From contig NZ_JADMLB010000075.1 of the NCBI RefSeq assembly GCF_015482765.1, forward strand, positions 1 through 56,846: DNA of 56,846 bases, in the 5' to 3' direction. The notes beneath the pieces are model-generated. The model was not told where the DNA came from and made no database searches. It saw only the letters and a program-made list of their open reading frames with translations. Source of the stretch: Halodesulfovibrio sp. Its GTDB lineage: Bacteria; Desulfobacterota; Desulfovibrionia; Desulfovibrionales; Desulfovibrionaceae. This document shows positions 13,535 to 21,331 of this stretch, piece after piece. The first letter of the stretch is position 1, and each line of letters opens with the position of its first letter. A program made the translations under genes and the position numbers.

Positions 13535-14263
13535 ATGAATAAGCCGGTAATTGAGACAAAGGCACTCACACGCACCTTCAGTCAAGGAGGGCAAACCGTC
13601 AATGCGGTGAAGTCCCTTGATCTGGTCATCAACCATGGAGAACTCGTGGCGATTCAGGGCACTTCGGGCTCGGGAAAATCCACGCTTCTACATCTCCTTG
13701 CCCTTCTCGATCGTCCTACGTCCGGCTCCTACTTTCTTGACGGAACCAACACTGCCCAAATGACTGATGATGAACAAAGTGATGCTCGAAACAAACTGAC
13801 CGGCATTGTCTTTCAGAACTTCTACCTCATCCCGTATGCCACAGCTGTGGAGAATGTTATGCTCCCAGGGCTGTATGGACACAGGGCACGCACCAAGCTT
13901 CGACAGCATGCTGAAGAACTGCTTGATGCTGTAGGGCTGGGAGACAGGCTCACGTTTAAGCCTTCGAGTCTTTCAGGCGGACAACAGCAACGAGTCGCCC
14001 TTGCCAGAGCCTTGTTCAACGATCCGCCTCTTCTTCTCGCTGATGAACCCACAGGGCAGCTGGATTCCAGCACCAGCAACGAAATTCTTGATCTGTTCAA
14101 AAAGATTAATGAGCTGGGAAAAACCATAATTCTTGTTACACACGACCCGCTTACCGCCGGCAGTGCACGACGACGCATTGTTTTTAAAGACGGAGAAGTG
14201 GTAAGTGATAAAACCCAACAGCCCGTCCGTAATTCTGACACTGCGGACAGCTCTATACAATAA
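13535..14263 (+). CDS. ABC transporter ATP-binding protein, MacB/LolD family
   Basis: 242-residue nucleotide-binding subunit. Walker A GTSGSGKST at 42-50, Q-loop near 94, signature LSGGQ at 146-150, Walker B LLLADEP about 167-172 and switch His at 203 are all intact. The LolD/MacB subclass is indicated by the closely similar opening VNAVKSLDL and by QQQRVALARAL. In MacB proper this domain is fused to the permease; here it is separate. Its natural partners are the adaptor just upstream and the two FtsX-type permeases at 20075-22551. The binding-protein gene 20 nt downstream belongs to a different ABC family and is unlikely to use this ATPase. Confidence 0.92.
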   Translation: MNKPVIETKALTRTFSQGGQTVNAVKSLDLVINHGELVAIQGTSGSGKSTLLHLLALLDRPTSGSYFLDGTNTAQMTDDEQSDARNKLTGIVFQNFYLIPYATAVENVMLPGLYGHRARTKLRQHAEELLDAVGLGDRLTFKPSSLSGGQQQRVALARALFNDPPLLLADEPTGQLDSSTSNEILDLFKKINELGKTIILVTHDPLTAGSARRRIVFKDGEVVSDKTQQPVRNSDTADSSIQ

Positions 14264-14282
14264 CAACACGCGAGGAGACATT

Positions 14283-15206
14283 ATGTATAAGTCCATCATT
14301 ACGTTTCTTTTTGCAGCATTTTTTCTAGCGTCCACTGTTCCTGCTTATGCAGAAACAGCCCCTATACGCTTTGCAGTTCCGCCATGGTCAGGGGCTATGG
14401 TTAAAGCAGCAGTAGCTACACAGGTTCTGGATGCACTGGGCTACAAAACATCAACCGTTCCTATGGAAGCTTCCGAAGTATACAAAGCTCTCGATGCAGG
14501 AGAAGTGGATGTCTACATGAGTTCATGGCTTCCAACACAGGAAATGCTTCTTGAACCATTACTGAAAACAAAGAATGTGCATGTTGCCGGAGTGAATGTT
14601 GCCCGCGCGCATACCGGACTTTGCGTTCCCGGATATGCACACGCTAAGGGTGTAGAGAATCTTGAAGATCTTGCAAAGCATGCTGATAAATTCAATTCCA
14701 CTATCTACACAAGTGAACCCGGTTCCGGCATGTATATCCTTGTTGATGAACTTATTAAGAAAAATACAGACGGACTTGGCAGCTGGAAACAGCAAGGTGC
14801 GCCTGTTGATGATATGCTGAAAGATGTCATCAGCGCTTTTAAAGAGAAAAAATGGGTTGTATTCACATGCTGGGAGCCACACTGGATGAACATCACTCTG
14901 GACATGCGCTACTTGAAAAGCATGGGAGGTGCCCCGAAACTTATTGCCGAAAGCACCATCAACACACTTATCCGTGCTGACATAAAAACAGCGAATCCCG
15001 ATGCGTACCTGTTCTTGTCCCGCTTCAATGTGAGCAAATTGACACAAGGAAAATGGACATATGACATTTCGCTTAAAGAGCAGGATGTTAACGAAACAGC
15101 TTCCGCATGGATCAAAGGAAACCTTGATACTGTTCGTCAGTGGCTTGGCAATATTAAAGCCGCGAACGGTGATCTGGCCTCAGATGTTATCAAAACAAAA
15201 TTCTAA
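14283..15206 (+). CDS. Glycine betaine/choline-type substrate-binding protein (OpuAC/ProX family)
   Basis: 307-residue periplasmic binding protein. ATG 14283 follows GAGGAG; the signal peptide (1-23) ends AYA before ETAPIRFA. The fold matches the ProX/OpuAC family, which binds glycine betaine, proline betaine or choline in an aromatic cage. WSGAMVKAAVA, DVYMSSWLPTQ and FTCWEPHWM carry likely cage tryptophans. No ProV/ProW partner is next to it, so it is an orphan here. Osmoprotectant uptake would suit a marine cell. No terminator separates it from the upstream ATPase gene or from the Phe-leader module downstream. Confidence 0.87.
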   Translation: MYKSIITFLFAAFFLASTVPAYAETAPIRFAVPPWSGAMVKAAVATQVLDALGYKTSTVPMEASEVYKALDAGEVDVYMSSWLPTQEMLLEPLLKTKNVHVAGVNVARAHTGLCVPGYAHAKGVENLEDLAKHADKFNSTIYTSEPGSGMYILVDELIKKNTDGLGSWKQQGAPVDDMLKDVISAFKEKKWVVFTCWEPHWMNITLDMRYLKSMGGAPKLIAESTINTLIRADIKTANPDAYLFLSRFNVSKLTQGKWTYDISLKEQDVNETASAWIKGNLDTVRQWLGNIKAANGDLASDVIKTKF

Positions 15207-15218
15207 CGGCACACAAAA

Positions 15219-15254
15219 TCGAACTTGACATTTTTGTACAAACACAGATAGAGA
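15219..15254 (+). promoter_or_regulatory. Promoter of Phe-leader symporter module (copy 1)
   Basis: A 20-nt block (15219-15238) containing perfect TTGACA (15225-15230) is identical in copy 2. A weak -10 (TAGAGA, 15249-15254) lies 18 bp after the -35. The distance from the -35 to the leader ATG is 30 nt in both copies, so the transcript may start at or very near the ATG. Confidence 0.65.
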
Positions 15255-15260
15255 ATTCAC

Positions 15261-15350
15261 ATGAACAACTTAACCACCAATTTCCTTTTTGCGTTTTTTG
15301 GTTTCCGCGGCATTCAGGCCTGCGGATCGGTTGAGTGTGTTCAAACGTAA
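15261..15350 (+). CDS. Phenylalanine-rich leader peptide (attenuator peptide, copy 1)
   Basis: A 29-residue frame: MNNLTT, then NFLFAFFGFR, then GIQA and CGSVECVQT before the stop. Five of eight consecutive residues (8-15) are Phe, as TTC/TTT codons. The last Phe codon (15303-15305) directly precedes RNA segment 1. The same reading frame occurs upstream of the second symporter with Tyr in place of Phe and with an identical CGSVEC. This is the architecture of attenuator peptides such as PheL. Its likely job is to make the ribosome pause when charged tRNA-Phe is scarce, not to act as a protein. Confidence 0.87.
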   Translation: MNNLTTNFLFAFFGFRGIQACGSVECVQT

Positions 15351-15406
15351 CACAAACTAACTCTATGCACCGATGAAACCGCAGGCGAAAGTCTGCGGTT
15401 TTTTTT
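15305..15406 (+). promoter_or_regulatory. Transcription attenuator, Phe type (segments 1-4 and terminator)
   Basis: Four segments pair in alternatives. 1:2 hairpin: CCGC-GGC (15305-15311) with GCC-T-GCGG (15318-15325). 2:3 antiterminator: GCCTGCGG (15318-15325) with CCGCAGGC (15379-15386), extended by ATCGGT (15326-15331) with ACCGAT (15369-15374). 3:4 terminator: AACCGCAG (15377-15384) with CTGCGGTT (15393-15400), followed by a T run. Ribosome stalling on the Phe codons would cover segment 1, free segment 2 to trap segment 3, and so prevent termination. Copy 2 keeps the pairings with compensating changes. Confidence 0.85.
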
Positions 15407-15430
15407 GTACCCTTAACACAGGAGACACAT

Positions 15431-15598
15431 ATGCTACTCGGACTCGGAAGTATTGAAACAGCATTGCCGTACTGGCTCTGCATCCTTTCAACCATTGGTT
15501 GTATCGCGTACGGGATCAAGAACTGGAACAATGCAGGTGAGCCTGACACTGTGACAGCTGAAGTAGAAGTAATAGTGCAGGAAAGCACGGACAACTAA
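15431..15598 (+). CDS. Small single-helix membrane protein, putative symporter accessory subunit (copy 1)
   Basis: 55 residues starting at ATG 15431 behind GGAGA. One hydrophobic helix (about 12-29: LPYWLCILSTIGCIAYGI) is followed by KNWNNAGEPDT and an acidic tail. It lies after the attenuator and 14 nt before the symporter start. The partner in copy 2 is nearly identical through residue 40 but differs in the tail. This resembles the small accessory proteins found beside some sodium:solute symporters; the exact role (stability, assembly or transport) is unknown. Confidence 0.8.
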   Translation: MLLGLGSIETALPYWLCILSTIGCIAYGIKNWNNAGEPDTVTAEVEVIVQESTDN

Positions 15599-15612
15599 GA
15601 GGAGTTACCGAC

Positions 15613-17208
15613 GTGGCCGTCAAACTTATTACCGCATTGCTGTACTTTGCAGCAGTTTTTTATCTGGGCTGGAAAGGATGGAAGGAGACCAAGGGGGCAA
15701 GTGACTACATGCTTGCCGGACGCTCAGTGAACCCTTTCATCATGGCCATGTCATATGGTGCAACCTTCGTCTCCACATCTGCTATCATTGGCTTTGGTGG
15801 TGTCGCTGCTATGTTCGGCATGCCTCTGCTCTGGCTTGCTTTTCTCACAATTTTTGTTGGTGTTTTTCTCGCCATGGTTTTTCTCGGAAAACGCACACGC
15901 CGTATGGGATTAACACTGAACTGCCACACGTTTCCTGAACTGCTCGGAAAGCGTTACAACTCCAAGTTTGTTCAATCGTTCTCCGGCGGCATCATCTTTT
16001 TCTTCATCCCTGTGTATGCGGCAGCGGTTCTTACCGGTATCTGCCGTATGACTGAAGTATCTTTAGGGCTGCCGTACGAATGGATGCTCATCGGCATTAC
16101 CGCAATCCTCTCTCTGTATGTGATCACCGGCGGTATGAAGGCTGTTATGTACACAGACGCATTCCAGGGAACCATCATGGCAGCGATGATGCTCTTTCTT
16201 CTGGGATACACCTACTACCTGCTCGGCGGTGTGGTTCCAGCACACGAAAAGCTCACAGCCATGTCTTACCTTATGCCGGAAGCATTGCAGAAAGGCGGCA
16301 TTCTCGGCTGGACACAGGGGTCAGCACAAGGCACACCGCTTTGGCTCGTTATCTACACAACACTGGTTTACGGTGTAGGCATCGGTGTACTCGCACAACC
16401 GCAGCTTGCCGTTCGCTTCATGACTGTTTCCAGCGACAAAGAGCTTAACAGAGCAGTGCTGTACGGTGCTATCTTCCTTATGCTGACGGTGTTCGTTATC
16501 TTTGTTGTAGGCGCACTTTCCAATGCTATTTTCTTCGAACAATTCGGAAAAATCAGTATCCAGATGGCAGGCGGAAACCTTGATAAGATCATTCCAGTCT
16601 TCATTGAAAGCATTATGCCTCCGTGGTTCTCAGCGGCATTCCTGCTCGCCATGTTTGCGGCGGCCATGTCAACGCTCTCAAGTCAATTCCACATTGGCGG
16701 AACCTCTCTTGCACATGATGTTTCGCAGGTTGTTATGCCGACAAAGCGTGATTCCAAACAGATCAGTCAGCTCGGTATCTTCGCAACTATTCTTGCGACG
16801 TTGGTATGGGCTTGGTTACTTCCGCCCTCCATTGTTGCGCGTGCCACTGCGTTCTTCTTCGGTCTCACAGGTGCGGCGTTTCTTCCAGCATACATTTTCG
16901 GGCTGTACTGGAAAGGAATGACCAAAACCGGAGCCAAGCTTTCTATGGTCGGCGGGTTTACCGTATCGATGCTCTGGATGCTCTTCATCCATAAGAAAGA
17001 AGCGGTTGCCATCGGGCTTTGTCAGACACTGTTCGGAAAAGCGACTCTGGTAGCAGATGCGGCTCCTGGAAGTACGATGTTCCTGCTCCAGTGGGTTGAT
17101 CCGAACGTTGTTGCGCTTCCTGTGTCCCTGACCATTGCTGTTGTCGTCAGTCTCGTTTCTCGCAGTTTGGCAGAAGATCACATTCAGCTTTGTTGGCAGA
17201 ACAACTAA
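15613..17208 (+). CDS. Sodium:solute symporter (SSS family), predicted phenylalanine transporter
   Basis: 531-residue SSS-family (TC 2.A.21) protein with about 13 membrane helices. Typical elements include the N-terminal DYMLAGRSVNPF, ATFVSTSAIIGFGG and the helix with AMSTLSSQFHIGGTSLAHD, whose serines fall in the region that forms the Na2 site in this family. The start is GTG at 15613 with GAGGAG upstream. It is close to identical to the second symporter at 18060 along most of its length. The family alone does not reveal the substrate. The Phe-rich attenuator upstream predicts expression during phenylalanine shortage and hence Phe uptake; this part is inference. Confidence 0.87.
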   Translation: MAVKLITALLYFAAVFYLGWKGWKETKGASDYMLAGRSVNPFIMAMSYGATFVSTSAIIGFGGVAAMFGMPLLWLAFLTIFVGVFLAMVFLGKRTRRMGLTLNCHTFPELLGKRYNSKFVQSFSGGIIFFFIPVYAAAVLTGICRMTEVSLGLPYEWMLIGITAILSLYVITGGMKAVMYTDAFQGTIMAAMMLFLLGYTYYLLGGVVPAHEKLTAMSYLMPEALQKGGILGWTQGSAQGTPLWLVIYTTLVYGVGIGVLAQPQLAVRFMTVSSDKELNRAVLYGAIFLMLTVFVIFVVGALSNAIFFEQFGKISIQMAGGNLDKIIPVFIESIMPPWFSAAFLLAMFAAAMSTLSSQFHIGGTSLAHDVSQVVMPTKRDSKQISQLGIFATILATLVWAWLLPPSIVARATAFFFGLTGAAFLPAYIFGLYWKGMTKTGAKLSMVGGFTVSMLWMLFIHKKEAVAIGLCQTLFGKATLVADAAPGSTMFLLQWVDPNVVALPVSLTIAVVVSLVSRSLAEDHIQLCWQNN

Positions 17209-17221
17209 GCTCAAGGATGTT

Positions 17222-17384
17222 GTCTCCGACGGGCAAAGGCTCTGCCCCGCACAAGAGACTGGCATCCGTAAGCACTCGTTCAGCGTGAACGGCAAAACAC
17301 CACAGCGTTCCGCTGAGCGTGTTAAGCAGATGTCTCCGACGGGCAAGGGCTCTGCCTCCACAAGGGACTGGTATCCGTAAACAC
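17222..17384 (+). repeat. Two direct intergenic repeats (about 53 bp each)
   Basis: Copy A at 17222-17275 and copy B at 17332-17384 share GTCTCCGACGGGCAA, GGCTCTGCC, and ACTGG-ATCCGTAA with a few mismatches; their starts are 110 bp apart. They lie in the 457-bp gap between the first symporter and the second leader, which has no credible gene. Similar GC-rich intergenic repeats are common in Desulfovibrio-type genomes as I recall, but I cannot confirm family membership. Confidence 0.75.
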
Positions 17385-17387
17385 CCG

Positions 17388-17406
17388 CAAGGGGGACGCC
17401 CCCTTG
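17388..17406 (+). repeat. Perfect GC-rich hairpin
   Basis: CAAGGGGG / CCCCCTTG with a 3-nt loop ACG, directly after repeat copy B. There is no T run, so it is more likely part of the intergenic repeat element than a terminator. Confidence 0.7.
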
Positions 17407-17481
17407 ACCGCGGTTTAACGCGACGACATCAAGCACTTATTCCATTGGAAGCCGCGGCTACATTACCTTTCTACTATCAAG

Positions 17482-17517
17482 AAGAGGCTGTCATTTAAAA
17501 GTGAACAGCCTCTTTTT
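17482..17517 (+). terminator. Intrinsic terminator of first symporter unit
   Basis: Ten-base perfect stem AAGAGGCTGT / ACAGCCTCTT, followed by TTTT. It ends the first module about 270 bp after the symporter stop, so the second module must use its own promoter. Confidence 0.9.
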
Positions 17518-17665
17518 TATATGTACATCGAGATAACCAGTTTTCATTAAGCCAATACATTATGGAAGAACATAAGAGAGACTCTCTGGTGTCAGCTGGT
17601 TGAAAAGACTTCCCTCTAAACTATATTTTTCGACGATATCGAAAAAATAAGCTTTTTCTGCTTTG

Positions 17666-17701
17666 TCGAACTTGACATTTTTGTATTAGAACAGGTAGAA
17701 G
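17666..17701 (+). promoter_or_regulatory. Promoter of Tyr-leader symporter module (copy 2)
   Basis: Same 20-nt block as copy 1 (17666-17685) with TTGACA at 17672-17677. A weak -10 (TAGAAG, 17696-17701) follows at 18 bp. The -35 to ATG distance is again 30 nt. Confidence 0.68.
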
Positions 17702-17707
17702 AAAGCC

Positions 17708-17800
17708 ATGAACACAATCAACCGCCATATGAACAGCTATTTTTATGCATATTATGGTTACCGCGTCTTAAAGACCTGCGGATCGGTTGAGTGTGCGTAA
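17708..17800 (+). CDS. Tyrosine-rich leader peptide (attenuator peptide, copy 2)
   Basis: A 30-residue frame beginning MNTINRHMN, then SYFYAYYGYR, VLKT and CGSVECA. Five Tyr codons (residues 11, 13, 15, 16, 18) align exactly with the five Phe codons of copy 1, while Ala, Gly, Arg and CGSVEC are unchanged. The final Tyr codon (17759-17761) directly precedes RNA segment 1. An internal ATG at 17729 could also start translation, but the 30-nt spacing to the -35 favours 17708. Confidence 0.87.
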   Translation: MNTINRHMNSYFYAYYGYRVLKTCGSVECA

Positions 17801-17863
17801 TCACGCATACTGATTAAGGAAAGTATACCGATTAACCGCAGGTGAGAGCCTGCGGTTTTTTTT
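17761..17863 (+). promoter_or_regulatory. Transcription attenuator, Tyr type (segments 1-4 and terminator)
   Basis: 1:2 hairpin: CCGC-GTC (17761-17767) with GAC-CT-GCGG (17773-17781). 2:3 antiterminator: CCTGCGG (17775-17781) with CCGCAGG (17836-17842), extended by ATCGGT (17782-17787) with ACCGAT (17827-17832). 3:4 terminator: AACCGCAGG (17834-17842) with CCTGCGGTT (17849-17857) and a T run. The GGC/GCC pair of copy 1 has become GTC/GAC here, a compensating change that supports the 1:2 hairpin. Confidence 0.87.
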
Positions 17864-17882
17864 ATAACAAGGAGAAAGAATT

Positions 17883-18044
17883 ATGCTGTTAGGACTCGGA
17901 AGTATCGAAACTGCCCTGCCTTACTGGCTCTGCATCATATCCACCATCGGCTGTGTTGCGTACGGCATAAAGAATTGGAACAACGCCGGTACGCCGGACA
18001 CAGTAACTATTGAATCGTTAGTGCAGGAAAGCACGGATAAGTAA
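17883..18044 (+). CDS. Small single-helix membrane protein, putative symporter accessory subunit (copy 2)
   Basis: 53 residues from ATG 17883 with AAGGAG upstream. The first 36 residues are nearly the same as copy 1 (MLLGLGSIETALPYWLCI, then a slightly changed helix and GIKNWNNAG). The tail is shorter and ends ESTDK. The stop is 15 nt before the second symporter. Conservation of the helix and the KNWNNAG segment after duplication suggests that a working contact with the symporter is maintained. Confidence 0.8.
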   Translation: MLLGLGSIETALPYWLCIISTIGCVAYGIKNWNNAGTPDTVTIESLVQESTDK

Positions 18045-18059
18045 CGGGAGAAATACGAC

Positions 18060-19661
18060 ATGGCTGTCAAGCTGATTACCTCACTGCTCTACTTTGGAAT
18101 TGTCTTCTACTTAGGTTGGAAGGGATGGAAAGAAACGAAAAACGCCGGAGACTACATGCTCGCCGGACGTTCTGTTAATCCGTTCGTTATGGCTATGTCG
18201 TATGGAGCAACCTTTATCTCCACCTCTGCGATTATCGGATTCGGCGGTGTTGCTGCCATGTTCGGAATGTCATTACTCTGGCTGGCGTTCTTAAATATTT
18301 TCGTGGGCATCTTCATTGCTATGGTCTTTTTAGGCAAAAGAACCCGTCGCATGGGTGTGGTACTGAACTGTCACACGTTCCCTGAACTGCTCGGTAAACG
18401 CTACAACTCAAAATTTATTCAAGGCTTCTCCGGCAGCATTATCTTCTTCTTTATTCCGGTATACGCAGCAGCGGTGCTCACCGGTATCTGCCGTATGACT
18501 GAAGTTTCGCTGGGACTGCCGTACGAATGGATGCTCATCGGCATTACTGTCATTCTCTCTCTGTACGTCATCACCGGCGGCATGAAAGCTGTTATGTACA
18601 CTGATGCATTCCAAGGCACTATCATGGTTGCCATGATGATCTTCCTGCTCGGCTACACATACTACCAGCTCGGTGGTGTTATTCCGGCGCATGAAACGCT
18701 CACCTCTATGGCGCATCTTGTTCCGGCCTCCTTGCAGAAAGGTGGTATTCTCGGCTGGACACAGGGAACAGAAACAGGCTCTCCGCTGTGGCTCGTGATC
18801 TACACAACCATCGTTTACGGTGTAGGTATCGGCGTTCTTGCACAACCGCAGCTTGCAGTACGTTTCATGACTGTTTCCAGCGACAAAGAGTTGAACCGTG
18901 CTGTTCTGTACGGTGCAATCTTTATCCTGCTTACCATTGGAGTGATCTACGTTGTAGGTGCACTTTCCAACGCAATTTTCCTAAACCAATTCGGCAAAAT
19001 CAGCATTCAAATGGCTGGCGGCAACCTTGATAAAATCGTCCCTGTTTTTATTGAAAAAGTTATGCCGCCTTGGTTCTCTGCCATGTTTCTGCTGGCTATG
19101 TTTGCCGCGGCCATGTCCACACTCTCCAGCCAGTTCCACATTGGTGGAACCTCTCTTGCGCATGATGTCTCCAGAAACGTTATGCGTCGTAAAAACAATC
19201 TGAGCGCTTCATCCATCAGCCAACTCGGTATTGTTGCTACGATTATTGCTACTCTTGTGTGGGCATGGCTGCTTCCTCCCTCCATTGTTGCACGTGCCAC
19301 AGCCTTTTTCTTCGGCTTAAGCGGTGCAACCTTCCTTCCGGCATACGTCTTCGGGCTCTACTGGAAGGGCATGACAAAAACAGGTGCTAAAGTTTCTATC
19401 GTAGGCGGATTCACCGTCTCCATGCTCTGGATGTTGTTCATCCATAAAAAAGAAGCTGCAGCTATCGGCCTTTGTCAGACACTGTTTGGAAAAGTAACTC
19501 TTGTTGCAGATGCAGCACCGGGCAGCACCATGTTTCTCCTCCAGTGGGTTGACCCGAACGTTGTTGCATTACCTATATCCGTTGCATTGGCTGTCGGAGT
19601 AAGTCTTGTATCCAGAAGCCTTGCAAAAGATCATATACAGCTGTGCTGGCAAAACTGCTAG
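18060..19661 (+). CDS. Sodium:solute symporter (SSS family), predicted tyrosine transporter
   Basis: 533 residues with the same helix pattern and motifs as the first symporter. Differences are scattered and mostly conservative. The densest changes are around residues 210-235 (TLTSMAHLVPASLQ against KLTAMSYLMPEALQ) and near 375-390 (RNVMRRKNNLSASS against QVVMPTKRDSK). The start is ATG, behind GGGAG, unlike the GTG of copy 1. The Tyr-rich attenuator predicts tyrosine as the cognate amino acid. Substrate prediction is inference; the SSS family assignment is firm. Confidence 0.87.
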   Translation: MAVKLITSLLYFGIVFYLGWKGWKETKNAGDYMLAGRSVNPFVMAMSYGATFISTSAIIGFGGVAAMFGMSLLWLAFLNIFVGIFIAMVFLGKRTRRMGVVLNCHTFPELLGKRYNSKFIQGFSGSIIFFFIPVYAAAVLTGICRMTEVSLGLPYEWMLIGITVILSLYVITGGMKAVMYTDAFQGTIMVAMMIFLLGYTYYQLGGVIPAHETLTSMAHLVPASLQKGGILGWTQGTETGSPLWLVIYTTIVYGVGIGVLAQPQLAVRFMTVSSDKELNRAVLYGAIFILLTIGVIYVVGALSNAIFLNQFGKISIQMAGGNLDKIVPVFIEKVMPPWFSAMFLLAMFAAAMSTLSSQFHIGGTSLAHDVSRNVMRRKNNLSASSISQLGIVATIIATLVWAWLLPPSIVARATAFFFGLSGATFLPAYVFGLYWKGMTKTGAKVSIVGGFTVSMLWMLFIHKKEAAAIGLCQTLFGKVTLVADAAPGSTMFLLQWVDPNVVALPISVALAVGVSLVSRSLAKDHIQLCWQNC

Positions 19662-19948
19662 CTGCATATGAACAAATAGAGACCCGTTGGTCAGCAGCCG
19701 GAATGCTTCTTCCCCCTGACAAGACCATGCATTCCCCTGCTGTCCGGCGGCATCTATACCGATTCACTCTCTACAAAAGAACGTGTGATGTGTAACGAAA
19801 GCCTGTCTCACTCCATACAACAGCTCTGCCGTTTCATTTCCTGCCTTATGTAAACGGTCAGTGCTGAAACATCCCGATCAAGCTTTCTTACATACAGTCA
19901 ACATCAAGCACTCTCTTCCCTGATGTGCCTCCGTTCTTTTGATCCCCC
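19662..19948. other. Intergenic region without recognised gene
   Basis: About 290 bp between the second symporter and its terminator. Frames here are short and lack ribosome binding sites; no repeat or RNA motif was recognised. Confidence 0.6.
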
Positions 19949-19991
19949 GCGTCCGGCTTCACAATGTGTGCGTGATGCCGGACGCCTTTTT
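19949..19991 (+). terminator. Intrinsic terminator of second symporter unit
   Basis: Stem GCGTCCGGC / GCCGGACGC with an inner TCAC/GTGA helix, followed by CTTTTT. It closes the symporter block, so the permease genes downstream need a separate promoter or readthrough. Confidence 0.92.
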
Positions 19992-20039
19992 CTTCTCACT
20001 ATTTTTCTCAGAACAAGCTAAATCTATACGCTATCTCTC

Positions 20040-20067
20040 TTGTACGAGCATGTAAGTAGGGTACAAT
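20040..20067 (+). promoter_or_regulatory. Predicted promoter of the permease pair
   Basis: TTGTAC (20040-20045), 16-bp spacer, TACAAT (20062-20067). The -10 ends only 7 nt before the ATG at 20075, so the mRNA would have almost no 5' untranslated region. Confidence 0.5.
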
Positions 20068-20074
20068 ACAGGGA

Positions 20075-21331
20075 ATGAAACTTCATACCCTGAAATCCAG
20101 CCTGGCCGTCATGGGCAGAACAGGACTCCTCGCGCTTCAAGCGTTGTGGGCGTATAAGATTCGTTCGCTCTTTGTCATCATTTCAGTATCTCTAGGGATC
20201 GCGTCCCTCACGGTGATCATTGCCGCACACGATGGAGCAAACCAGAAAGCGGAAGAACTGACTGAATCATTCGGCCCTGATGCCGTTCTTGTTCTGGGCG
20301 GAGATATCTTCAACAGACCGGTAGGACAACGGACACTTACCCTTTCGTGGAATGATCTTACCCAGATAAGACGCTCTCTTCCCGGAACATATTTAGTCAT
20401 TCCATTACGATCAATCAGCGGGAAAGTTATCCGGTACAGAAACAAAAACTGGAACGTTGCACGCATTATCGGCTCCTCAGCCAACTACAGTGAAGCATGG
20501 AACTGGCCGCTCATTTCGGGCAGAGACTTTACTCAGGAAGATGTGACACGGGCCTTACGAGTCTGCCTTATTGGTGAAACAGTCACACAGGCTCTGTTTT
20601 CTCCGACAGAAAGCCCTGTCAGCAAGACCATCTTTATCGGTAACGTACCGTTCACTATTATCGGTGAACTCTCCCACAGAGGCTATTCCGGCGGTGGAGG
20701 TTCCAGCCTTGATGATCGTGTTATTGTTCCCCTTACAACCCTTGCACAGCGCTTCGGAGCAGACAGGCAGTATTTCAGAGGATTACGCATTAAATACATT
20801 GATGCTGAAAACATGCAGGCTAACGTCGACAACCTCACCAGTTTTCTGCGTCATCTGCATAACCTTTCCCCCGGTGAACCGAATGACTTTTCCATTCTTA
20901 CAGCAGAAGAAGTTCAACAATTCCTCTCTGCCTTAAAAGGCGGTCTCACCATCTTTCTTGGTGTTACCGCAGTTACCGCCATGATCGTAGGTGGATTTGT
21001 TCTGGCAAATCTTTTCTATTTATCCGTTTCAGAACGAACCATTGAGATCGGTCTCAAGCGTGCTATCGGCGCCAGTAAGCGCGCCATCATTCGCCAGTTT
21101 TTACTTGAAGCAGTTTTGCTGACTATTATCGGCGGGGTCTTAGGAGTACTGTTAGGAATTGCCCTTGCGCGTGTTCTTTTTATTTTTAATCTTATTGAAA
21201 TAAGGCTTTCGTTAAAGATATTCCTGACGGCATTAGGTGCAGCCATGGCTGTGGGCGTACTCTTTGGATTAAGTCCAGCTAAACAGGCTGCGGAACTTGA
21301 TCCTATCAAGGCATTACGGGGAGACGGCTGA
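20075..21331 (+). CDS. ABC export permease, MacB/FtsX type (first subunit)
   Basis: 418 residues. One N-terminal helix (about 28-50, IRSLFVIISVSLGIASLTVI), a long periplasmic MacB-like domain (about 55-275) with GRDFTQEDV and VCLIGETV, then three C-terminal helices forming the FtsX domain, including EIGLKRAIGASKRAIIRQFLLEA in short form (EIGLKRAIGA). The last residues DPIKALRGDG are typical of MacB/LolC-like permeases. It overlaps the next permease at TGATG. ATPase and adaptor genes for this system are at 12285-14263, on the far side of the symporter block. Confidence 0.88.
   Translation: MKLHTLKSSLAVMGRTGLLALQALWAYKIRSLFVIISVSLGIASLTVIIAAHDGANQKAEELTESFGPDAVLVLGGDIFNRPVGQRTLTLSWNDLTQIRRSLPGTYLVIPLRSISGKVIRYRNKNWNVARIIGSSANYSEAWNWPLISGRDFTQEDVTRALRVCLIGETVTQALFSPTESPVSKTIFIGNVPFTIIGELSHRGYSGGGGSSLDDRVIVPLTTLAQRFGADRQYFRGLRIKYIDAENMQANVDNLTSFLRHLHNLSPGEPNDFSILTAEEVQQFLSALKGGLTIFLGVTAVTAMIVGGFVLANLFYLSVSERTIEIGLKRAIGASKRAIIRQFLLEAVLLTIIGGVLGVLLGIALARVLFIFNLIEIRLSLKIFLTALGAAMAVGVLFGLSPAKQAAELDPIKALRGDG

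Follow-up and report, generated by a model that had tools for sequence, protein, structure and literature searches.

The attenuators pheL, trpL and hisL of Escherichia coli, which precede the pheA, trp and his operons, share a leader peptide with control codons, a protector, an antiterminator and a terminator, and are relieved by shortage of the amino acid that is read. The attenuation mechanism of such leaders is described in passages of PMC9413887, which also give possible his attenuators on the transporter genes hisZ*YX. The closest precedent in reasoning is T-box control: passages of PMC2494555 (Wels 2008) report that T-box specificity in Firmicutes was used to predict transporter substrates and mention a sodium symporter among genes behind distant T-boxes, the abbreviation SSS being absent from the text covered. 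The plan of the E. coli attenuators was found twice at positions 15219-19661 of the window, i.e., the whole stretch of 56,846 nucleotides (nt) analysed here (Halodesulfovibrio sp., a marine sulfate-reducing bacterium; assembly GCF_015482765.1, contig NZ_JADMLB010000075.1, called C27 in the host genome of 3.7 Mb). Two head-to-tail modules, in register at about 2450 nt, each end in a gene for an SSS symporter. Taken together, the evidence makes it probable that both are controlled by ribosome-mediated attenuators and encode importers, of phenylalanine (Phe) at 15613-17208 and of tyrosine (Tyr) at 18060-19661.

All elements were read in the order that an initial annotation of the window had proposed for both copies: a TTGACA promoter element, a leader open reading frame (ORF), a terminator, a small membrane protein of family NF045580 and the symporter. 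Unlike pheL, trpL and hisL, these leaders precede Na+ symporters with a small partner, belong to leader mRNAs predicted to be leaderless, read different amino acids in two duplicated copies, and match no Rfam leader. A T-box is a tRNA-binding riboswitch, whereas the modules have a leader peptide. The initial annotation had opposed known attenuators of this kind, said to control biosynthesis, to their use on symporters here. Use on SSS carriers stands, but transporter genes as targets have precedents, as far as the cited passages go, in the T-boxes and hisZ*YX. Among the matches listed by the literature search, which had most subscription journals outside its scope, no title or abstract dealt with an SSS symporter under leader-peptide attenuation, and the phrase 'symporter small accessory protein' was not found in it. 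Attenuation of this class is established; neither its application to this symporter nor the Phe/Tyr duplication was found in the literature searched. The features are as follows.

15225..15253, + strand: predicted promoter of module 1, with -35 TTGACA at 15225-15230 and a weak A/T-rich -10 at about 15247-15253 (sequence; conserved TTGAC spacing)
15261..15350, + strand: leader peptide 1 ORF, MNNLTTNFLFAFFGFRGIQACGSVECVQT (sequence read directly)
15282..15305, + strand: Phe control codons, 5 Phe in 8 codons (sequence)
15304..15326, + strand: protector hairpin 1:2 of module 1, -13.1 kcal/mol (folding)
15318..15331, + strand: segment 2, GCCTGCGGATCGGT, within the leader codons for ACGSV; 5' strand of the 14-pair antiterminator (folding)
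15369..15386, + strand: segment 3, ACCGAT-GAAA-CCGCAGGC; 3' strand of the antiterminator, holding most of the terminator 5' arm (folding)
15375..15406, + strand: intrinsic terminator 1 (15375-15402) plus T tract (sequence, folding, consensus scan)
15431..15598, + strand: small membrane protein 1, NF045580 symporter small accessory protein, 48.6 bits at a cut-off of 35 (profile match)
15613..17208, + strand: SSS symporter 1, GTG start, predicted Phe importer with the substrate taken from the leader (PF00474, 182.3 bits)
17672..17700, + strand: predicted promoter of module 2, with -35 TTGACA at 17672-17677 and a weak -10 at about 17695-17700 (sequence)
17708..17800, + strand: leader peptide 2 ORF, MNTINRHMNSYFYAYYGYRVLKTCGSVECA (sequence read directly)
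17738..17761, + strand: Tyr control codons, 5 Tyr and 1 Phe in 8 codons (sequence)
17761..17781, + strand: protector hairpin 1:2 of module 2 (folding)
17774..17787, + strand: segment 2 of module 2, ACCTGCGGATCGGT (folding)
17827..17843, + strand: segment 3 of module 2, ACCGAT-TAA-CCGCAGGT (folding)
17834..17863, + strand: intrinsic terminator 2 (17834-17857) plus T tract (sequence, folding, consensus scan)
17883..18044, + strand: small membrane protein 2, NF045580, 48.7 bits at a cut-off of 35 (profile match)
18060..19661, + strand: SSS symporter 2, predicted Tyr importer with the substrate taken from the leader (PF00474, 192.2 bits; structure model)

The core of leader 1 is NFLFAFFGFR (AAT TTC CTT TTT GCG TTT TTT GGT TTC CGC) and that of leader 2 is SYFYAYYGYR (AGC TAT TTT TAT GCA TAT TAT GGT TAC CGC). 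Codon alignment confirmed the reported facing of five Phe and five Tyr codons (F8, F10, F12, F13 and F15 with Y11, Y13, Y15, Y16 and Y18), with the intervening Ala, Gly and Arg kept in both (GCG/GCA, GGT/GGT, CGC/CGC). Each of the five pairs differs by T versus A in the middle base, and one also in the third base. F12, the single remaining Phe codon of leader 2, stands opposite Leu in leader 1. This recoding pattern suggests that the leader ORFs are translated. Regulatory specificity would have been rewritten by changing a few middle bases while the other codons of the block stayed as they were.

Homologues of the symporters were searched in 297 genomes of the order (E up to 1e-90), which gave 81 places in 70 genomes; 79 were scored, two contig-end fragments (L081, L087) being left out. 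A leader was counted if at least five F/Y occurred in 12 residues, followed by a terminator (6 T in 8). This rule was fixed after a first listing and was applied identically to shuffles. Of the 79 loci, 65 passed; when all 114 upstream segments were shuffled with dinucleotides preserved, none of the 2280 shuffled sequences did. The leader is therefore not special to the pair in the window; Phe-rich leaders are the rule for the clade in this order. Typical examples contain RFSFFFFFSFRFFRSACGLGV or ALFFFFNFFSFTSPVVW, and the codon counts were 328 for TTT, 138 for TTC, 46 for TAT and 22 for TAC.

Alternative RNA structures were obtained by folding with the 3' arm of the terminator withheld. In leader 1, GCCTGCGGATCGGT paired with ACCGAT...CCGCAGGC at -27.6 kcal/mol (terminator, -19.3); in leader 2, ACCTGCGGATCGGT paired with ACCGAT...CCGCAGGT at -30.8 kcal/mol (terminator, -18.1). 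The protector hairpin CCGC...GCGG adjoins the last control codon and engages segment 2. It is clear in both window leaders and weaker in some relatives, the energies ranging from -2.9 to -13.1 kcal/mol. Under the same folding conditions the terminator 5' arm paired inside the leader ORF in 65 of 65 leaders (8-14 pairs, median 11), and the pairing segment started 3-13 nt past the last aromatic codon in every one. For 63 of the 65, no more than 5 of 100 shuffles attained the fold energy; the shuffles for the folding and promoter-distance tests keep base composition only. Among 46 distinct triples of segments 2, 3 and 4, with 30 distinct segment 3 arms, the strands remain complementary for the most part; some triples have a mismatch, and some have changed in step on all three strands, e.g., CCGTAGGC with GCCTACGG and CTTACGG.

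The stretch CGSVEC, described earlier as fixed, is indeed conserved in both leaders. A conserved peptide signature was considered and rejected: the codons for (A/T)CGSV contain segment 2, which takes part in both the antiterminator and the protector hairpin, and the stretch is largely fixed for this reason. Its 19-nt core, with up to 3 mismatches allowed, had two matches in the host genome, both exact, and the reversed control had one. A T-box or an Rfam leader as control element was looked for by a covariance-model scan of 14000-20500, in which no leader family and no T-box was found; the two matches with E up to 5 (E 0.72 and 1.3) were both below the gathering score, and neither was a leader or a T-box.

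A comparison was provided by the aromatic biosynthesis cluster on host contig C54, which comprises aminodideoxyheptulosonate synthase, dehydroquinate synthase II, pheA, aroA, tyrA, trpE, trpG, trpD, trpC and trpB. These genes were named by best hits, some below equivalog cut-offs, and an ORF in the trpC-trpB interval was left unscanned. Ahead of the cluster lies the leader MNAIFAKPASFETNFYFWFFFSYGKARGRFSGAFS (G000:C54:86488-86595; L131:4489-4596), which starts with MNAIFAKPASFETNFYFWFFFSYGKARG..., has the F/Y/W core NFYFWFFFSYG, and is followed by a terminator 28 nt downstream, an antiterminator being present. The first cluster gene had matches in 146 of 150 order genomes, of which the best 30 loci were taken; the rest of the cluster was checked in the host only. 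An aromatic leader with a terminator was present at all of these 30 loci (best 30 of 146) under a terminator rule of 5 T in 8, looser than that for the symporters. F, Y and W occur together in 25 of the 30 cores, and four of the remaining five are Phe-rich.

Trp-rich versions of the symporter leader, for which a search had been advised, were not found: W occurs in 0 of 65 cores, the counting rule requiring F/Y, and upstream listings that also scored W and H gave nothing convincing. The same rule would have admitted F/Y/W leaders. The difference in W (25/30 versus 0/65) had a Fisher probability of 3e-18, or 7e-13 on distinct cores, with shared ancestry uncorrected. Leader composition thus tracks downstream function, and no other argument speaks as strongly for Phe and Tyr handling by the symporters. 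In 2005 an attenuator was predicted for the aroA'-aroB'-aroQ/pheA-aroF-tyrA-[trp] supraoperon of Desulfovibrio vulgaris (Table 7 of PMC1173090). From that table, by published description rather than by sequence, it is the same kind of gene cluster as that on C54, so the attenuator on the aro/trp cluster is already known as a prediction and is not new. The supraoperon is biosynthetic, with F/Y/W leaders at its first gene in 25 of 30 loci, whereas the symporter leaders carry F and/or Y. The central proposal of the initial annotation, leader-peptide attenuation by Phe and Tyr, is strongly supported by the alternative structures in every leader, by the order-wide conservation and by the F/Y/W leader of the host cluster.

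The promoter element TTGAC was located 35-38 nt 5' of the leader ATG in 64 of the 65 symporter leaders, with an A/T-rich -10 at the correct spacing; in base-composition shuffles it occurred at 34-38 nt in 66 of 13000. Both window promoters have an equal distance of 36 nt to the ATG. They are absent from the list of the consensus scan, the -10 being weak. Shine-Dalgarno-like words were present in 11 of 65 symporter leaders (17%) versus 9.7% in shuffles. Among the 30 aro leaders, TTGAC is 36-38 nt away in 16, one of them with a Shine-Dalgarno-like word, and 60-97 nt away in 14, of which 13 have such a word. Where several in-frame ATGs occurred, the one nearer the aromatic run was taken; L160, counted as distant, would give 37 from its upstream ATG. 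The fixed distance from TTGAC to ATG places the predicted +1 at or next to the leader AUG, so the leader mRNA is probably leaderless. In the passages covered, PMC7298713 describes an attenuator transcript of S. meliloti, rnTrpL, whose 5' end coincides with the leader AUG; it shares the leaderless start and differs in controlling trp biosynthesis and in belonging to an alphaproteobacterium. If the leaderless start holds, these leaders would form a large set of attenuators in which transcription and leader translation start at the same base.

In the proposed mechanism, scarcity of charged tRNA-Phe (or tRNA-Tyr) would stall the ribosome on the Phe (or Tyr) codons of the leader. Segment 2 (CCTGCGG...) would thereby be freed from the protector hairpin and would pair with segment 3, the terminator would be blocked, and the operon would be transcribed. 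With the amino acid plentiful, the ribosome would reach the stop codon, the terminator would form and transcription would end. Each module would thus drive a small membrane protein together with an SSS symporter, which would take up by Na+ coupling whichever amino acid its leader reads. Regulation by Phe- and Tyr-reading attenuators is considered very likely on the basis of anatomy and conservation, from which we also infer stalling and readthrough in vivo. That Phe and Tyr themselves are the substrates, as the leaders indicate, is considered likely, with less certainty than the regulation.

Both symporters are full-length PF00474 proteins and are 87% identical to each other; the next SSS protein of the host is 31% identical. 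The NF045580 cut-off was passed at two places of the host genome only, both in these modules, beside the SSS genes. With the SSS/SLC5 symporters (PutP, PanF, SGLT, SiaT) the carriers share PF00474, the fold and the Na2-site residues. Unlike those members, both score under the cut-off of every curated substrate-specific model listed. The closest such models were PutP and PanF (184.8 and 164.2 bits for symporter 1, far below the cut-offs); for PutP (TIGR02121) the two symporters reached 184.8 and 187.9 bits at a cut-off of 515.5. Symporter 1 was matched weakly by ActP and MctC (45.7-59.2 bits).

An AlphaFold model of symporter 2, based on 11 sequences, had a mean predicted local distance difference test score of 79.5 and a predicted template modelling score of 0.80. 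Its fold matches were SGLT1/2-MAP17, SiaT, NIS, SMCT1 and CHT1. A HMMER alignment to SGLT1, counted by eye, placed A350, S353 and T354 on A389, S392 and S393, which we take to be residues of the Na2 sodium site, and F52 on N78. Among 11 members S353 was invariant, and A350 and T354 were nearly so. Na+-coupled transport is predicted for both symporters. The general Na2 site is described in section 4.1 of PMC7918813, in passages of that review of prokaryotic SSS carriers from 2021. Its main text contains 0 mentions of phenylalanine, tyrosine or aromatic, and it names no Phe/Tyr carrier. If the assignment is true, Phe- and Tyr-specific carriers would be kinds absent from that review, and an SSS clade left unassigned by the curated sequence models would gain a directly testable substrate. 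The small partners beside the SSS genes are possibly analogous to MAP17, the small membrane partner in the best-matching SGLT-MAP17 complexes.

A tree of 114 symporters was calculated by a quick method without bootstrap. The six symporters with Tyr leaders formed one clade (support 98), and their six partners formed its sister clade (support 99), with five Phe leaders and one FYAFFDF leader. Both clades belong to a group of 18 rows (support 99), together with six copies from four other genomes of the genus, in which the leader is either missing or rich in Phe (FFFGFYFF type). Leader labels required 13 changes for five labels on the tree. These labels count residues of the whole leader, so that L077, which mixes F and Y, was assigned to Tyr and some leaders with Y outside the core were assigned to the mixed label. 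The Phe/Tyr pair was present in 6 of the 10 same-genus genomes having a match. The nearest named relative among the matches was Halodesulfovibrio spirochaetisodalis JC271 (locus L088, NZ_JXMS01000003.1), with a symporter 93% identical.

The pair in six genomes is most simply explained by one duplication. Because the neighbouring leader groups are Phe-rich, the Phe reading is likely ancestral and the Tyr leader a derived switch in one subgroup. An ancestral Phe-reading module would have been duplicated inside the genus, and five control codons of one copy would have been recoded to Tyr. The wider proposal is that sensor and carrier switched specificity together: the Phe module was copied, five codons went from TTY to TAY, the carrier became a Tyr symporter, and the composition of the order-wide leaderless aromatic attenuators (F; Y; F+Y+W) would report operon function. 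We regard this as slightly better than an even proposition. Between the Tyr clade (6) and the partner clade (6), 32 alignment columns are fixed differently, two of them being a gap and the start codon (a GTG, taken as V). Examples that fall in core helices, as assigned by eye on the structure model, are positions 53, 79, 84, 251, 342, 421 and 424. A matched pair of carriers with 87% identity would be a resource for locating the recognition of Phe versus Tyr. Tandem copies also occur elsewhere in the genus. In G171 the copies have two Phe-rich leaders (tandem loci of G171 and G076: L041 and L042), and in G076 the second copy, without a leader of its own, lies about 100 nt behind a leader-bearing first.

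The main alternative, which we consider unlikely, is that the attenuators act as proposed and the symporters import aryl-acid precursors (phenylacetate or 4-hydroxyphenylacetate, arylpyruvates). Anaerobes can make Phe and Tyr from aryl acids, and the leader content would be unchanged, the end product being sensed. The SSS family includes carriers of short-chain organic acids (section heading 2.3 of PMC7918813), SMCT1 is among the fold matches, and ActP and MctC models match weakly. These weak matches, however, stand against the far higher PutP and PanF scores of symporter 1 given above, and two separate aryl-acid carriers fitting two leaders would be needed.

Somewhat less probable again is that Phe/Tyr status serves as a general nutrient signal and that the symporters transport something unrelated, or a broad range of compounds, such as proline, betaine or several neutral amino acids. 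PutP as the best substrate-specific hidden Markov model match and a choline/betaine-type binding protein gene (14205-15206) just upstream agree with such a substrate. The leaders of the near-identical duplicates, however, differ as two substrates would predict, the aro/trp cluster leader reads the three products of its own operon, and a Phe-to-Tyr recoding kept in 6 genomes would be needless. It is very improbable that the F/Y-rich ORFs are no translated sensors, with a terminator that is constitutive or answers to a protein or a T-box, and with T-rich RNA needed for structure as the source of the aromatic run. This reading is favoured by third-position variation prevailing in only one of four leader groups (the Tyr leaders) and by the weak Shine-Dalgarno signal. 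It is opposed by several observations: the TTT to TAT recoding spares Gly, Ala and Arg and produces Tyr codons instead of an arbitrary T-rich stretch, TTC and TAC stand beside TTT and TAT, neither a T-box nor any other Rfam leader family was found in 14000-20500, the pairing segment keeps its place behind the last aromatic codon in all 65 leaders, and the fixed promoter distance sets the start codon at the predicted +1.

Phe and Tyr import under attenuator control remains the preferred reading, and the following results weigh against it. At least one Y is present in 19 of the 65 symporter leader cores, several of which mix F and Y. In a codon-position test of four small leader groups, third-position variation was dominant only in the four distinct Tyr leaders. 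Judged by paired arm bases, just 31 of the 65 leaders had a count that 5 or fewer of 100 shuffles reached. Sites found by the simple consensus scan were not above chance, with 7 terminator-like sites versus 5.0 (standard deviation 2.2) in shuffles and 4 promoter-like sites versus 5.5 (standard deviation 2.1). The host has pheA and tyrA, so uptake would not be obligatory and would save synthesis. In fitness data for D. vulgaris, the passages covered of PMC10102598 give no gene specific for Phe use, the presence of the symporter in that strain being unchecked. Fourteen of the 79 order-level loci are without a leader. None of the 35 symporter places outside the order, from 395 sampled genomes of the phylum, had such a leader; this count takes in all 35 searched places outside the order, with L091 and L092 left out. 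The sensor is therefore younger than the symporter clade or was lost outside the order, and on this evidence the Phe/Tyr assignment is not to be extended to those homologues.

Three of the 14 leaderless loci are second copies in genomes that also have a leader-bearing copy (G076, G245, G289), and examination of the 14 for leaders built on other residues gave nothing consistent. The flanks of leaderless homologues are mixed. In one genus outside the order, two genomes have a TrpB-like gene next to the symporter (L163:4060-5421, L113); an Lrp-type regulator is a neighbour in one case, and LIV/urea-type ATP-binding cassette (ABC) genes in one. Neighbourhood as a clue to the substrate was discarded, with no consistent signal over 135 loci, many of which had a flank of only 1.5 kb.

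Directly upstream of module 1, the gene at 14205-15206 encodes a choline/betaine-type ABC substrate-binding protein. The two genes scanned before it resemble a MacAB-type exporter; the permease is not among these scanned neighbours. Between the modules, a short repeat is present in two copies that are 88% identical (17218-17300 and 17331-17387), and the first copy, when searched against the genome, matched these two places only.

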